From NCBI GenBank assembly GCA_028280845.1, contig JANQKZ010000053.1:1-64000 (forward strand): a DNA stretch of 64,000 nucleotides, in the 5' to 3' direction. The notes under the pieces are model-generated. The model worked only from the letters and a program-made list of their open reading frames with translations, was not told where the DNA came from and made no database searches. Below are positions 2,236 to 23,940 of the stretch, piece by piece; positions within the stretch are counted from its first letter, which is position 1, and each line of letters starts with the position of its first letter. This DNA is from Opitutales bacterium. GTDB lineage: Bacteria > Verrucomicrobiota > Verrucomicrobiia > Opitutales > JABSRG01. The translations under genes were made by a program, and so were the position numbers.

Positions 2236-2289
2236 CCCTCGAGGAAACTAAAGGGGTCAAACGTAGAGGGGGGAATATTCCTTTCAAAA

Positions 2290-2312
2290 GGTAAAGAGTA
2301 AAGGATTGGCCC
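2290..2312 (+). repeat. AAAGAGTAAAGGATTGGCCC interspersed repeat, copy D (split by MITE)
   Basis: This is one of five copies found only between genes in 2.2-7.7 kb. After removing the MITE and one target duplication, it reads on into TTTTAACTTCCTC at 2468-2480, matching the unbroken copy at 7622-7654. Confidence 0.7.
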
Positions 2313-2456
2313 GAATGGCACTAAGTTAAGCTCCTTTTCAGGGGTGGGCGGCCATCCTGCAAGCAGGAGGCCCTACGAATTAAGCCCAATTGTAGGGCCC
2401 GTTGCTTGTCAACGTGGCTAGAATATTTGGATACTTGCCTTAACTTAGGGCCATTC
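2313..2456 (+). mobile_element. MITE-like element, copy 1 (144 bp), with 11-bp target duplication
   Basis: The element starts GAATGGCACTAAGTTAAG and ends with the inverse CTTAACTTAGGGCCATTC, an 18-bp terminal inverted repeat with one mismatch. It is flanked on both sides by the identical 11-mer AGGATTGGCCC (2302-2312 and 2457-2467), as expected of a target-site duplication. Inside is a strong hairpin built on CCTGCAAGCAGG with GGCC on either side. There is no coding capacity. A second copy in the opposite orientation lies at 23770-23896. Target duplications of 10-13 bp are known for parts of the IS4 family, so an IS4-like transposase elsewhere could mobilise it (inference). Confidence 0.8.
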
Positions 2457-2648
2457 AGGATTGGCCCTTTTAACTTCCTCTCGAGAATCGGGGGTAAAGA
2501 GGATCAAACATACAAAGCATGAATCTCAATAAGTGAACAGCGGGTTGCCTCCCTTTCACTTCTAGAATTGCACGTATTGAGTTTTGGTCAGAGCGGCTAG
2601 GGTCTAAGTGATATTTGATTCTACGTTTGAGTCCTTTTATCTTACCTG

Positions 2649-8106: not shown

Positions 8107-11100
8107 TTAATCGTCATCTTCGCTTGGAGATGGTTCTTCGGGAGGGGGCGCTGGGGTGATTTCTCCCACTTCAACGACACCTCCAGGAATATAAAAGTGC
8201 CCATTTCTAATATTTTGAGGATTTCCCTGATTTGATCCCATTTGACCCTTGTTGGTAATTTTGAGATCTCCAGTTTCTTTGTTATAGATAATCAATCCCA
8301 GATTAGAGCCATCGTCATTTGAAAGTATATCTTCTAAAGCCTTGCGTAATTTCGAATCTTTAATATTTACATTTACCTCATCTGAATCCCCCTTAAGGAA
8401 ATCATCAGTTTGAAAAGCAATATTCAAAATATCTGGGATTTGGAGAGGGTTATTTAAACCATGTTCTAATAATTTCCGGGCATTTTTTACTCCCAATTGA
8501 TCGCGCAAGAACGATATTCCATGAGCAATCTTTGCTTTAAATGAAGCATAATTTATCGCGCTATTTACACCAAAAGATCCAAATAAACCCGTTCTGAAAG
8601 AAGAATTTATTGCTACCCCTTGTAAAAATGAATAAGTGAGAATTCCAGCGGCTCTAGCAGGGGACATTCTATGGAGATTATCGTGTGCAAATACAGCAAC
8701 TGCGATCGCATTTGTTTTAGCAAGATCTATATATTTCTCAGCATAATCCAATGAAAATCGAGCCCTTTCTTGGATGTACTCAGAACCATAGTTCAAATCA
8801 TGGTCAAAAGCAGCCATTACTCCGTGAGACTTCGGTAGATCAAAGAAACCATCCCTGTATTGAATTCCATCTCTCCTCAGAGCCTCTCTTCGTTTCTCGA
8901 GTTCCTCTGGAAGGTTCTCAAGATTAGCATAAGGATTTAGTGTATACAATCCTAATAAGTCCCAATTATTCACTGGGTTATTCTTATTGAAAGCATACAG
9001 ATTACTTCCCCCAGTCTCTCTAATGGGGTCCTGGTTGAGGAATCGTCCGACTCTTGGGTTGTAGTACCTGAAGCCGTAGTAGACCAGGCCCGTCTCGTCG
9101 TCGGTGTATTTGGTGGCGTGGCGGAAGGGATTCGTCCTGGCATAGGTGCCGGTCATGCCTTTGGAGCGGCCGAAGGCATCGTAGTCATAGCCGGCCACAT
9201 GAGTGGTGGGGTTATTTTTCTCGTGCAGGGCGATGACATTGTGGGAGCTGTCGTAGACGGGAACATAGGTGTTGGATCCGTCCTTGATCATGAGGAGACC
9301 CCCGACGCCTCCCGCACCCTGGGTGCTGCCGGAGGCATCCAATCCCCAAGTGTAGCTTTTTTCGATGTTGCCCGACGAATCGGTCTCGGCAATAAGGTTC
9401 CAGCCGTTATAGACAAACCGGGTTTCCTTGGTGGCGCCCAGGCTGTGATGCCAGAGACCGGAGCTGGGAACAACCTGCCTGGATTGCCCCGGGCCGGACC
9501 ATTCCAGCTTGATGCTGGCGGTGCCCGTGGTTTCAATCATGTCGATCATGAGGTGGCGCTTCACCCCCTTGTCAAAGTGGATGGCGACACTGGACGACCC
9601 CGTCCAGTAATTGACCAGTAATCGTCCATCAACTCGCATGGCGGCTCCATCGTTGGCCGTCAGATAGAGCGTCCAGGTTCCGGAGGAGGGAGCCTCGATG
9701 AAGCCGGTCCAGCGCACGAGGAAGGTGTCGCCGTCCACCCCCGGCTGCGGTGACCCGCTGCCCCAGTCGTAATTCAAGGTCTCATGTTTCTTCTGGCTGT
9801 GGTAGCCCGTCCAGTTGGTGTTGTTAAAGAACTTGGCTTTCAGTCCATTTTCCATGGTGGGGCCGGATTTTTTGGTCCGGCGGCCCAGGTAGTCATATTC
9901 GAAGCTGTAGGTGCCCCAGTCCCAATTATCCACCATCTTGGTGAGCCGGTTTTCCGAGTCCCAGGTATAGAGATAGATCCCGTCGGAGGTGACATTGCCA
10001 TTCTCGTCATAGGAATGGGTATTGCTGGTCCCGAAGTCCTCCGGTGTGCTCGTGTACTGGTTCAGGTTATTGACCCCGTAGCTGTTGTTTACAAATCCCA
10101 TCTGGGTGTCCAGGGTCCGGTTGCCCATGGCATCATGCGTATAGGACCGGTAGGCCCCCGGAACGGTTGTCCCGGTGACAGAGAACCCGGGATTGTTCAG
10201 GAATTTTGCGTCGGATGTCGCCACCTCATTTCGGTCGGAATAGGTAACATCGAGGGTAATGCCATCGTAGGTGTTGGTAACGATATAACCCAGCGTTCCC
10301 GTGGCGTTGGCGGCATACGCCGCAGAGCGTTTCATTTCGCGGGTTTTCCTACCAATCGTATCATAGGTGTTGCTGAACCGGGCCAGCTGGCTGCCGCCAT
10401 CGGTGGTGCCCACCACGGCCGAGGCCAGGCGATGGCTGTTGGATTGGTAGGTATGGGTGCGGTACATTTTCCATGAAGCGCCATACTTTACCTTCAGCTT
10501 ATGAATCAGGTTGGAGTTGCCCAGGTAATCATACTCAAAAATCGTGTTTAAAGATGAGGTCGGGGAAACTTGCTCGAGCCTGCCATAATTATCATAGGAG
10601 TAATTGGTCTGGTAGGAAGTCGAATTAATATAATGAAAAGACTTTGCACTGCCGTTGAGGAGCGTGCTGTGCCCATAGTTATACTGGTAGGAGAGGACCT
10701 TGCCTCCGAAGTCCGAGCCCAGGGTTTCCGTTTGCAGCAGGAGGCTTCCCTCCTCGGCCGGATCGCCGGACTCATTCAGTTCAAAGTAATTAAAAGTCCG
10801 CGTTCCGGTTTCGTCGGCAACGGTAAGCAGGTTGCCCGTCCGGTGGTAGGTATAGGTTACATTCTTGGATAACTTCGAGTGGGAATCTGTCGTTCCGGAG
10901 TAGAGCATTCGATGCAGGCGCCCGCGGTGCCCGTCGGAATTGATATACTCGTAGGTGGTGATTAATCCCCTCGGGTCGCTTCTGGTGAGCAGGGCTCCGG
11001 CCTTATTGTAGGTAAAGGTATGGCTTTTGTTGGCCGCATCGGTCCGCGTTTTCAGCACGTTGGTGTAATTGTCATAGGCGAACGTGGTTTTGTCTCCGGC

Positions 11101-14100
11101 CGATGAAAAATTGCCCGGCAGGCTGGACCCGGTCCACCCGGAAGTCCCCCGGTAGGTATGCTGTTCCGTCATTCTCCCGGCACTGTCATAAACATACTTT
11201 ACCGGATTCGGCACATGCCCCCACACATGGGTGGCCTGACCGTAGGTGTTGTATTGGAAATAAGTGTATTTGTTCTGGTGGTTTTTCTCGTACCATTTGA
11301 GACCGGCAGCGGTGTAATCCAGGGTCGTTTTTTGCCCGTCCGGGGCGATAATTTCTTTCAGCTCTAAACTCCCTGAATTGTAGGTGTAATCGGTTCCTCC
11401 AATTCTGGGATCAATGGATTCTTTTGCCCGAGCCAGGTGGTCGTAGGCCGTTTTGTATACATTCCCGGCCGCGTCTGAGCTTTCGACTAACAGGCCATTG
11501 TGATAGAGGGACTCCATGGTCGTCGATGTGCCCTGACGCACGCGTTCGACAGTTTTAGTTTTCGCGGACCCGCGATCCACCGTGACGCGGTCTTCATTGA
11601 GGTTTCCGTGGAAGTCATACCAGTAGGCATAATTAAAAACGCCGCTGTCGAAGTTTTTAGTCTTGGTAAACCGCTCCAAAGCAATAACTGATGTTCCGCT
11701 TGAGGGGTAAGGGTAAGTTTTTACCACCTCATGAAGGTAGGTCTTTCCTGAAATATTGTCATAAGAGAAAGAGTATTCCTGGATATCGAGGTCCAGATTA
11801 CTGTTAAAAGTAAAACTGACCGCACTTGAGTCTTTCCAGGTTCTCAACACTCTTCCATACGTGTCATAGCTGATAACAACGGGGGGAGAGAGGTGGGTGG
11901 GCCCATCCTTATGGGTGATGAGGTATTTTTGCCCCAGCGAATTGTAGGAGTGATATTTTGCCCAATTTCCGCCGTTATTAAAGCTGGGTCCCGCTTCCAG
12001 GTGGAAGTCGCCAGTCCAATAGTACTTCCTTCGATGCCAGTTCGACGTGGAGGTTTCATTGCGGGTTTCGAAGAGGATACCGCCGGCATCGTATAAATAA
12101 TCTACGGAATAACCGGGCTGGGCGGTCCCGGATACACTCTTCAGCCGGCCATCCTTGTAGAGCGTTTGTATGGTCGTGGCGCCTCCGGGTTGGGTCGTGG
12201 TGGTCACCGTTGGGCTGGAATAGGTGAAGGAGGTGGTATAACTGCCCGGCGCAGTCGTGGAGGTAATCCTTCCGGCCGTATCGTAGACGTACGAAGTAAT
12301 TAACTGCTCGGCGTGAGCCGCGCCTTTCACCTTTTCCTGGGTGATCCGGTGAACCCCATCGTAGACATAGGTGGTGGTGATATCTGCCTGGGCCGGGTGG
12401 GACGGATTGGACAGGGCAGCCACTCCCTTCTTTGTTTGGGTAGAGACTCGACCATAGGCATCATAGGTGTAGGTCGTCTCCACGCCGGATTCGTCTTTTT
12501 CGGAAGTCAGGCGATCCCCCTGATAGGTGGCTTCATAAAACACCCGATTTGCGCCGTAAGCGGATAAAGCACTGATAAAGATCAGGTCGTACGATTTCAG
12601 CAGTTGGCCAAAGTCGTTGTAGTGGTAGAACACTTCCTGAACGACATCGAAGGTCGTTCCTCCTCTATAGACATAGGTTTTTTCAAATGCGAGGCGTCCT
12701 GAACCATGAAAGGCTCTTTCAATGGCGATGCTTTTGTTGACTTCCATCGTTAAGGAGTCGATGGCTCCCCCGTCAAAGGTGCTCACTCCTGAACCGTCTT
12801 TACCTTCCAGAGTGACGATACGATAGCCACTACCGGAAGTGCTGGGGCTGAAGTCGGGATACAAGAATCCATTGATCGTGACATCCCCTTTTTGCCGGAG
12901 GTAGGACCTTTGGGTCCCGTCAGGCCGGATTACCGAAATAATTGCTCCCCGGAGATGGTTTTCCTGCACCTTGGGGCCATAAAACTTGATTTTTGTCAGT
13001 AAGCTGGTGCCTCCGGAGGACATTTTTTCTGTTTTATTCAGTTGAATATAGGCTTCTCCGTCGAAGGTGCCTTCGGATTTGGTGTAGCTGATGTCTCCAA
13101 TAGTAGTGGAGCCATACTTCGTAAGCATAGTCAGTGGGAGAGGGATCCGGTTATCGGAATCGGTTGTGTAGGTCAGTGTGGTCTTTATTGCATCTGTATC
13201 ATCCTCAAAAGTCTGAACAAGTTCTTTGGGCTCGTTCAGGAGGACCTTATTGGTGGCGGACAGCTCAGAGGGGCTGTAGGTATCCGCGCCCGTGACGCCG
13301 CCCAGGGTGTCGGTAAACTTTGTCCCGTACGGTCCACCGGAATAGATGGCGACATAGGGATCAAAATTATAGAGGGTCAAGGCCCCTTTCTTCCTTTGCG
13401 TAAACAGCCTGGGATTTGCCTCATCAAATTGGAAAGAGTAAGTTTCCAGGGTAGACCCGGTTGGAGAGGTCCTGACATCGATATCCACCGTGTGGGAGGC
13501 GATATCACTACTATCCGGGGCCGCGTAGACGATATAGTCATCATGATAGAAATACCGTTGGGTGGAAGCGTTGTAATTATGCCAGTCCTCTATCTTCGTG
13601 ATGGTCCGGGTGTGGAACGAGGTATCCGTCACGTCCTGCTCCAGGGATAATTCCTGCCTGGTCAGTCCCGAAACGGTTTTTTCAACTACAATTTCTGAAT
13701 CCTTATAATCGGCAGTCGAATTGTTCCCGTCCTTGACGAGGAAGGTGGCAAAGGGCGTCGCCCCTCCATTGATGGTGTAGTAGGGAGAGCCCGCGGTGAC
13801 ATCGGCGGGATCATAAAACCGGATTTCAAAGCTGTCCCCCGCCGTCACGGTCTGCATGTCGACCAAGGCTTCCGGCACCATAATCTGGCGTTCTTTCCAG
13901 GATTCCCCCGGGGGGGTGATGATCTCAATCTCGCCATCGGAGCCCCGGTCACCGGAGACCTCAATATCCCAATAGTCGACTACGTTGCTGCCAAACCAGA
14001 GGGGGGCCAGAATTATTCGGCCCACTCCGCCTCCCTGGCTGTTTCTTCCCAGCCCAATGATAATCCGGGTCTTTTCTGCGGTCACCACCGAGGACCCCTG

Positions 14101-14577
14101 GGCCACCGGGATATAAGGCTCGCTGCCGTTGCCCCCTCCCACCTGGATAAAGCATCGGCGGGTAGAGGAAGAATAATACGTCAGCTCGGAGCGTCTCACC
14201 CGGTTCACCGCCATGGTGTCATCGCTGCCGGTCAAGCCGGTAAATAAGATCTGCTGGTCCGGAACCCCGCTATGGGCATAGCGCTGTTTCGCATAGACCT
14301 CGTAGTCCGTGACCCCGTTTTGGGTGGCGGACAGGAGGTAGGGCTTGTTGTTGTCCACCGCCACTTCCAGGGTCAGTGCGGACTCGCTCCACCCCGACCC
14401 GGAGAATGAAAACCGCTGGATCTCCCCGTTGACGCTCAGGTCGACATAACCCGAGCCATACCCTCTGACATTGAACGAGACAAACTTCGTCACCCCGTCT
14501 GAGTTAGCCGAGAGGGAAACTACGGATAATACCGTTATGAATGTTGCAGTGAAAAATTGCTGAATCGACATCTTCAT
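8107..14577 (-). CDS. large secreted Rhs/YD-repeat polymorphic toxin protein with PA14 domain
   Basis: This 2156-aa protein begins with a Sec signal (hydrophobic TATFITVLSVVSLSA, ending near residue 24). Residues about 25-600 are an unrecognised secreted N-terminal part. About 640-1570 hold many YD/Rhs repeats (for example TYTYDAYGRVSTQ, YVYDSAGRMTEQ, FEYDYLGRRTKK) that form the toxin-enclosing shell in this family. Residues about 1575-1702 are a PA14 domain, a predicted carbohydrate-binding module, starting GLKAKFFNNTNWTGYH. The Rhs core ends at DPIRETGG...NPVNNWDLLGL near 1870. It is followed by a unique tip of about 285 aa ending in an acidic PSEDDD; I recognise no toxin family in it. Start: ATG 14577 or the ATG at 14571, which has better spacing to the GGGG upstream. 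The 14581-15273 gene precedes it by 3 nt. Confidence 0.92.
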   Translation of the reverse strand: MKMSIQQFFTATFITVLSVVSLSANSDGVTKFVSFNVRGYGSGYVDLSVNGEIQRFSFSGSGWSESALTLEVAVDNNKPYLLSATQNGVTDYEVYAKQRYAHSGVPDQQILFTGLTGSDDTMAVNRVRRSELTYYSSSTRRCFIQVGGGNGSEPYIPVAQGSSVVTAEKTRIIIGLGRNSQGGGVGRIILAPLWFGSNVVDYWDIEVSGDRGSDGEIEIITPPGESWKERQIMVPEALVDMQTVTAGDSFEIRFYDPADVTAGSPYYTINGGATPFATFLVKDGNNSTADYKDSEIVVEKTVSGLTRQELSLEQDVTDTSFHTRTITKIEDWHNYNASTQRYFYHDDYIVYAAPDSSDIASHTVDIDVRTSPTGSTLETYSFQFDEANPRLFTQRKKGALTLYNFDPYVAIYSGGPYGTKFTDTLGGVTGADTYSPSELSATNKVLLNEPKELVQTFEDDTDAIKTTLTYTTDSDNRIPLPLTMLTKYGSTTIGDISYTKSEGTFDGEAYIQLNKTEKMSSGGTSLLTKIKFYGPKVQENHLRGAIISVIRPDGTQRSYLRQKGDVTINGFLYPDFSPSTSGSGYRIVTLEGKDGSGVSTFDGGAIDSLTMEVNKSIAIERAFHGSGRLAFEKTYVYRGGTTFDVVQEVFYHYNDFGQLLKSYDLIFISALSAYGANRVFYEATYQGDRLTSEKDESGVETTYTYDAYGRVSTQTKKGVAALSNPSHPAQADITTTYVYDGVHRITQEKVKGAAHAEQLITSYVYDTAGRITSTTAPGSYTTSFTYSSPTVTTTTQPGGATTIQTLYKDGRLKSVSGTAQPGYSVDYLYDAGGILFETRNETSTSNWHRRKYYWTGDFHLEAGPSFNNGGNWAKYHSYNSLGQKYLITHKDGPTHLSPPVVISYDTYGRVLRTWKDSSAVSFTFNSNLDLDIQEYSFSYDNISGKTYLHEVVKTYPYPSSGTSVIALERFTKTKNFDSGVFNYAYWYDFHGNLNEDRVTVDRGSAKTKTVERVRQGTSTTMESLYHNGLLVESSDAAGNVYKTAYDHLARAKESIDPRIGGTDYTYNSGSLELKEIIAPDGQKTTLDYTAAGLKWYEKNHQNKYTYFQYNTYGQATHVWGHVPNPVKYVYDSAGRMTEQHTYRGTSGWTGSSLPGNFSSAGDKTTFAYDNYTNVLKTRTDAANKSHTFTYNKAGALLTRSDPRGLITTYEYINSDGHRGRLHRMLYSGTTDSHSKLSKNVTYTYHRTGNLLTVADETGTRTFNYFELNESGDPAEEGSLLLQTETLGSDFGGKVLSYQYNYGHSTLLNGSAKSFHYINSTSYQTNYSYDNYGRLEQVSPTSSLNTIFEYDYLGNSNLIHKLKVKYGASWKMYRTHTYQSNSHRLASAVVGTTDGGSQLARFSNTYDTIGRKTREMKRSAAYAANATGTLGYIVTNTYDGITLDVTYSDRNEVATSDAKFLNNPGFSVTGTTVPGAYRSYTHDAMGNRTLDTQMGFVNNSYGVNNLNQYTSTPEDFGTSNTHSYDENGNVTSDGIYLYTWDSENRLTKMVDNWDWGTYSFEYDYLGRRTKKSGPTMENGLKAKFFNNTNWTGYHSQKKHETLNYDWGSGSPQPGVDGDTFLVRWTGFIEAPSSGTWTLYLTANDGAAMRVDGRLLVNYWTGSSSVAIHFDKGVKRHLMIDMIETTGTASIKLEWSGPGQSRQVVPSSGLWHHSLGATKETRFVYNGWNLIAETDSSGNIEKSYTWGLDASGSTQGAGGVGGLLMIKDGSNTYVPVYDSSHNVIALHEKNNPTTHVAGYDYDAFGRSKGMTGTYARTNPFRHATKYTDDETGLVYYGFRYYNPRVGRFLNQDPIRETGGSNLYAFNKNNPVNNWDLLGLYTLNPYANLENLPEELEKRREALRRDGIQYRDGFFDLPKSHGVMAAFDHDLNYGSEYIQERARFSLDYAEKYIDLAKTNAIAVAVFAHDNLHRMSPARAAGILTYSFLQGVAINSSFRTGLFGSFGVNSAINYASFKAKIAHGISFLRDQLGVKNARKLLEHGLNNPLQIPDILNIAFQTDDFLKGDSDEVNVNIKDSKLRKALEDILSNDDGSNLGLIIYNKETGDLKITNKGQMGSNQGNPQNIRNGHFYIPGGVVEVGEITPAPPPEEPSPSEDDD

Positions 14578-23698: not shown

Positions 23699-23769
23699 AA
23701 TAACATGTGAATATCCCTATTTATGGGCCATCTGTTACGGTTTCGGAACAATATGTTGGGGTCAGCCTG

Positions 23770-23896
23770 GAATGGCCCTAAGTTAAGGCAAGTATCCAAA
23801 TATTCTAGCCACGTTGACAATTGGGTTTAGTTCGTAGGGCCTCCTGCTTGCAGGATGGCCGCCCACCCTGAAAAGGAGCTTAACTTAGGGCCATTC
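23770..23896 (-). mobile_element. MITE-like element, copy 2 (127 bp)
   Basis: Same element as 2313-2456 in reverse orientation. The 18-bp terminal inverted repeats GAATGGCCCTAAGTTAAG are perfect here. The flanks GGGTCAGCCTG (23759-23769) and GAGTCAGCCTG (23897-23907) differ at one base, so an 11-bp target duplication is again likely. Relative to copy 1 it lacks 16 nt between two TTGT motifs and one G; the rest is nearly identical. It lies between an HNH nuclease gene and the end of a TPR-like gene. Confidence 0.8.
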
Positions 23897-23940
23897 GAGT
23901 CAGCCTGCATTTTGTTAAAAACTCGGACAAAGCGCCGCTC

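Follow-up and report, generated by a model that had tools for sequence, protein, structure and literature searches.

Two short repeats in the 64,000-nucleotide stretch analysed here (the window) raise the question of what kind of element they represent, what moved it and what it carries. The first-pass annotation described them as a MITE-like element at 2313-2456 and 23770-23896, in opposite orientation and with a common 18-bp terminal inverted repeat (TIR), and these coordinates turned out to be exact. Its interior, which holds two REP palindromes, was missed at that time. The element is very probably an IS4-subgroup MITE with two host-derived REPs inside, moved in trans by an IS4-type transposase.

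Copies of the MITE and their flanks

Copy 1 (W1; 2313-2456, plus strand) is 144 bp long and is bounded by a left TIR at 2313-2330 (plus strand, GAATGGCACTAAGTTAAG) and a right TIR at 2439-2456 (minus strand, GAATGGCCCTAAGTTAAG). The direct 11-mers reported for it are the same on both sides, AGGATTGGCCC at 2302-2312 and 2457-2467. Copy 2 (W2; 23770-23896, minus strand) has 127 bp and is near-identical to copy 1 except for a deletion of 16-17 bp, which removed half of one of the palindromes (REP-B). Its direct 11-mers, also reported before, are GGGTCAGCCTG at 23759-23769 and GAGTCAGCCTG at 23897-23907. The window contains four matches to the TIR, compared with 0.04 expected by chance.

A search for more copies across the genome had been suggested, and it gave 20 TIR matches at no more than two mismatches (none with the reversed-pattern control) and, in BLAST with copy 1, 12 element stretches of 86-100% identity. 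Six contigs (C9, C12, C46, C50, C53, and C54) start or end in a copy, as expected because repeats break assemblies. Some copies are known from contig ends only, and the copy number was obtained by pairing these ends by their flanking 11-mers: C9 with C54 (GGGATAGATTC at both sides), C12 with C50 (GGTCAAACGTA common to both), and C46 with C53 (CAGCATGACTC and CAGCATGACCC as flanks), the last pairing being uncertain because two element subtypes are present there. The pairing leads to approximately 10-11 copies in the 4.8-Mb genome, each of 127-144 bp with 18-bp TIRs (GAATGGCMCTAAGTTAAG). Duplications of 11 bp with zero to two mismatches flank the MITE at eight sites: they are exact at W1, C4, C18, and C9/C54, have one mismatch at W2, C6, and C46/C53, and two at C22. 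The C12/C50 copy is the one atypical site, with 13 extra bases at the junction of its right end. At this end, a tandem GGGTCATTCGG duplication (C50, 85-128) is located directly outside the TIR. The earlier reading as a transposed, non-autonomous element is supported by about 11 copies with target duplications genome-wide.

The element is short, non-coding, and multi-copy, as is typical of a MITE, and no open reading frame of 100 amino acids lies inside the window copies. Five of the six complete copies do not overlap any frame of at least 100 codons. The exception is the C22 copy, which runs over the start of a frame of 604 codons (C22, 2524-4338) and may thus have altered the beginning of that gene. 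Elsewhere in the window, a 2156-codon open frame occupies 8107-14577 on the minus strand. Among the 273 genomes of the order that were searched, the MITE was found in none of the other 272, which belong to different genera.

IS4-type ends, autonomous relatives, and target sites

The ends of the IS4 subgroup follow the signature -AATR--------WTW----, and its direct repeats are 10-13 bp long (De Palmenaer et al., 2008; PMC2266710, Table 1). The TIR of the MITE matches this signature at seven of seven fixed positions, and the 11-bp duplications lie inside the published range. Other genomes of the order contain autonomous ISs that share these ends. The one in G223 is 1525 bp long, with the TIR GAATGGCGCTTAGTTAAG, the exact duplication GGGTCGGGTCG, and a 463-codon frame; that in G024 has 1556 bp, the exact duplication GGGTCAGGCCT, and a 490-codon frame; and that in G063 has 1584 bp and a 507-codon frame, without a matching duplication. 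In G007, a TIR adjoins a partial transposase start at a contig edge. The NCBIfam model of the IS4 family transposase, NF033592, recognizes the proteins of G223, G063, and one gammaproteobacterial MAG (197-211 bits, cut-off 115), and inspection shows the Y(2)R(3)E(6)K motif in those transposase sequences, which come from other genomes and not from this one. The relatives resemble the published subgroup also in a length of approximately 1.5 kb and a single frame with YREK, whereas the MITE has approximately 140 bp and no transposase gene (PMC2266710). The IS4 family, which the first-pass annotation had brought in on account of the long target duplications, is supported by these ISs with their ends, 11-bp duplications, and NF033592 matches, as well as by the fit to the published subgroup.

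Other candidate ISs, decayed or without direct duplications, were left out of the count of intact ones. In G001 (C7, 1049-2718), a decayed IS4-type transposase frame of 489 codons has a second half resembling an unrelated enzyme; it is apparently a chimera that arose by IS decay. The IS4-type IS of G048 (C3, 1414-2840) retains intact ends around a broken and partly deleted transposase, and its flanks are inverted repeats (GACATGACTC / GGGTCATGTC), not direct ones.

The transposase whose absence from the window had already been noted was not found in the whole assembly either, as far as the IS4 type is concerned: no DDE_Tnp_1 domain (Pfam PF01609) was found in this genome, an IS4-type transposase of a relative used as a query gave no match in it, and inspection around the solo TIR-like matches on C31 and C6 recognized no transposase frames. 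The MITE family therefore looks orphaned. The search for an autonomous IS with the same ends, proposed earlier, thus succeeded in relatives and gave none in this genome. Judging from the ends, the mobiliser here was probably an IS4-type transposase. Such a DDE transposase would act in trans, as with other MITEs, binding the TIRs and moving the whole unit; it may since have been lost from the genome or may be located in an assembly gap.

The matches listed place the exact TIR in many bacteria, from Gammaproteobacteria and Verrucomicrobia to Pontiellaceae and cyanobacteria; the pairing of ends among these matches gave more than 20 short elements of approximately 110-260 bp and several of approximately 1.55 kb, most of which carry 11-bp duplications. 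The consensus of the duplications is a loose pseudo-palindrome, GGGTCWGACCC, with G at position 7 in 23 of the 23 used. A target model trained only on these 23 duplications from elsewhere, and not on those of this genome, predicts the nine duplications found here with a combined p of 8e-9 against all window 11-mers, among which W1 ranks in the top 0.9% and W2 in the top 0.1%; the C12/C50 duplication fits it poorly. IS231A, a member of the IS4 family, prefers GGG-N5-CCC. Insertion of the MITE would accordingly take place at an 11-bp site like GGGTCWGACCC, which would be duplicated.

Two copies, C4 and C12/C50, are placed in the repeat GGGGTCAAACGYARA, other copies of which are empty, including that at 2253-2267 (plus strand, GGGGTCAAACGTAGA). 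The GGGGTCAAACGTAGA repeat also flanks, in inverted orientation, a 311-codon Y1 tyrosine-transposase frame (C44, 914-1923), an arrangement like that of TIRtrons (PMC3733652), in which another tyrosine transposase stands between TIRs near GGGGWSAS (PMC3733652; PMC2817692). Specific insertion into repeats associated with tyrosine transposases, through their GGGTCA, was considered and rejected as the main rule, since targets like GGGTCWGACCC are also used in Gammaproteobacteria and cyanobacteria, although two copies do lie in such a repeat.

REP palindromes inside the element, in this genome and elsewhere

In copy 1, REP-A (2351-2376, minus strand, GTAGGGCCTCCTGCTTGCAGGATGGC) is a GTAG-type REP and is positioned head to head with REP-B (2392-2418, plus strand, GTAGGGCCCGTTGCTTGTCAACGTGGC), which is of the same type with one extra T. 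Copy 2 carries REP-A at 23834-23859 (plus strand) and a remnant of REP-B at 23808-23819 (minus strand), the other half of which is deleted. Both follow the plan GTAGGGCC-stem-loop-stem-TGGCC, and folding places the GTAG head outside the stem. The weak extra matches obtained in the genome BLAST fell on two inner segments of the MITE, namely, the REPs. A search with the REP pattern gave 36 matches, 10 in MITEs and 26 outside, and none with the reversed control. The free REPs show a wider range of stem types than the MITE (CCCTGC, CGTTGC, CACTTGC). They are arranged in outward-facing pairs, in contrast to the head-to-head pair of the MITE, so a capture would not simply have been that of one whole REPIN. 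A RAYT-like Y1_Tnp frame of 208 codons (C13, 1060-1828) is located between two REPs of the GTAGGGCCACTTGC type. The GTAG head outside an imperfect palindrome, the repetition in the genome, and the RAYT flanked by REPs agree with the GTAG REPs described previously (PMC3733652; PMC2817692). Unlike in those reports, where movement of REPs by RAYTs is proposed, the REPs here are found inside a DDE-type MITE. An association of REPs with an IS4-family element, ISRm22, is also known from REP-targeting ISs (Tobes and Pareja, 2006; PMC1525189); in those cases the REP is the target of the IS, whereas in the MITE it is carried as cargo between the ends.

MITEs of other bacteria with the same ends often hold inverted palindromes as well, as judged by eye. 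The contigs sampled for the counts below were, in each genome, the first twenty and not a random selection. The interior of the Thiogranum MITE is a pair of CGTC-type REPs, and most free units in that genome end at the same core positions, approximately 36-112 of the MITE, without TIRs. Ten Thiogranum matches were picked because BLAST covered the core only: eight had no TIR within five mismatches, one had a match at chance level, and one (L361) a degenerate end. In a 400-kb sample of this genome, 12 of 18 core clusters had no TIR and 5 of 18 had both, while the REP pattern gave 24 without a TIR and 10 with both. Free copies of a 123-bp core are found at many sites in Microbulbifer rhizosphaerae and end near positions 29 and 151. 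In these two bacteria, MITEs with the same ends thus enclose a free repeat unit of the host. The same probably applies to a Pontiellaceae MAG, in 217 kb of which three free and two MITE-borne copies of a GTAGG REP were found. The Sedimenticola sample contained 10 CGTC REP matches, of which 8 have a TIR on either side and just one is free. The search for a free copy of the whole MITE core gave nothing clear in Nostoc and Chthoniobacter, and the pattern is therefore recurrent, not universal. In the Chthoniobacter flavus MAG (G277), a 137-bp MITE with the same ends is present in approximately 40 copies, two of which stand in tandem with the common duplication AGGCCTGACCC.

Origin of the REP cargo and its significance

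We infer that the two palindromes were acquired from the host genome and did not originate in the MITE. They may have been taken up as filler when the miniature element was formed, or they may have been put in later by a RAYT. As the IS4-type transposase would move the whole unit, each insertion would place the REP pair at another position in the genome, in most cases between genes.

The later entry is the core of a possible, though less probable, alternative, which differs from the preferred explanation in the order of events only. It assumes that the MITE initially arose from an IS by internal deletion, that a RAYT later inserted the REPs, and that the IS4-type transposase then spread the product. 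The presence of Y1/RAYT-type genes in the genome is consistent with such an order, and, to the eye, the sub-terminal sequence immediately inward of the TIR has a loose likeness to IS ends. Against it, REP-A is present in every copy, the head-to-head spacing is constant, and no REP-free version of the MITE was found in this genome.

It is rather unlikely that the palindromes were born in the MITE and that the free REPs are truncated MITEs left after decay of the ends. The free REPs and the MITEs do have sequence in common, and the small REP-like copies of QMITE2 of Coxiella burnetii were read in this way by the authors (PMC5896051). However, the free REPs of this genome have more stem types than the MITE, form outward-facing pairs, and flank a RAYT, and the free units of Thiogranum and Microbulbifer mostly share end points and lack TIRs, which is what one would expect of an independent element. 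The notion of a mere structured RNA or terminator that mimics a MITE, with flanking 11-mers by chance, finds some encouragement in the ability of the whole MITE to fold as a single long hairpin (z -5.2) and in the location of copy 1 between convergent frames, but it is refuted by the 11-bp duplications, which are exact at four unrelated sites and near-exact at another four, and by the autonomous ISs that share the ends of the MITE.

Capture of host REPs by an IS4-subgroup MITE, the reading preferred here, has one precedent in its arrangement. QMITE2 (PMC5896051) is a MITE of 150-190 bp with direct repeats of 7-11 nt and a GTAG REP inside, and free, small REP-like versions occur in the genome, as they do here. 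The likeness is one of plan, a MITE with direct repeats and a GTAG REP inside. In the passages on QMITE2 that were consulted, no transposase family is named, whereas the ends found here are those of the IS4 subgroup, and for the present MITE similar cargo recurs in other lineages. A literature search that covered few subscription journals gave no earlier description of host REPs inside IS4-subgroup MITEs across several lineages. An IS4-family MITE as such is not new; it is the recurrent REP cargo that is of interest.

For this genome, the MITE accounts for two repeats of the window and six contig ends. Beyond it, we propose that REPs, those of the CGTC class among them, can use IS4-type MITEs as vehicles. 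No transposase is known for CGTC REPs; they are described as lacking a dedicated one, and their mobility as unsolved (PMC3733652). The cases of Sedimenticola and Thiogranum offer a concrete, testable route for their movement. A broader view, that IS4-subgroup MITEs are a general vehicle of REP/REPIN dispersal across phyla, repeatedly capturing host palindromes that are then spread by DDE transposases, is tentative and somewhat more doubtful than not; if true, CGTC REPs would have a mobiliser. The idea of REP-carrying MITEs can be tested in cultured hosts, e.g., Microbulbifer or Sedimenticola. Few repeats between bacterial genes are as common as REPs. If MITEs with IS4-type ends routinely carry REPs, then the number and placement of REPs would be partly set by an unrelated DDE transposase, besides RAYTs.
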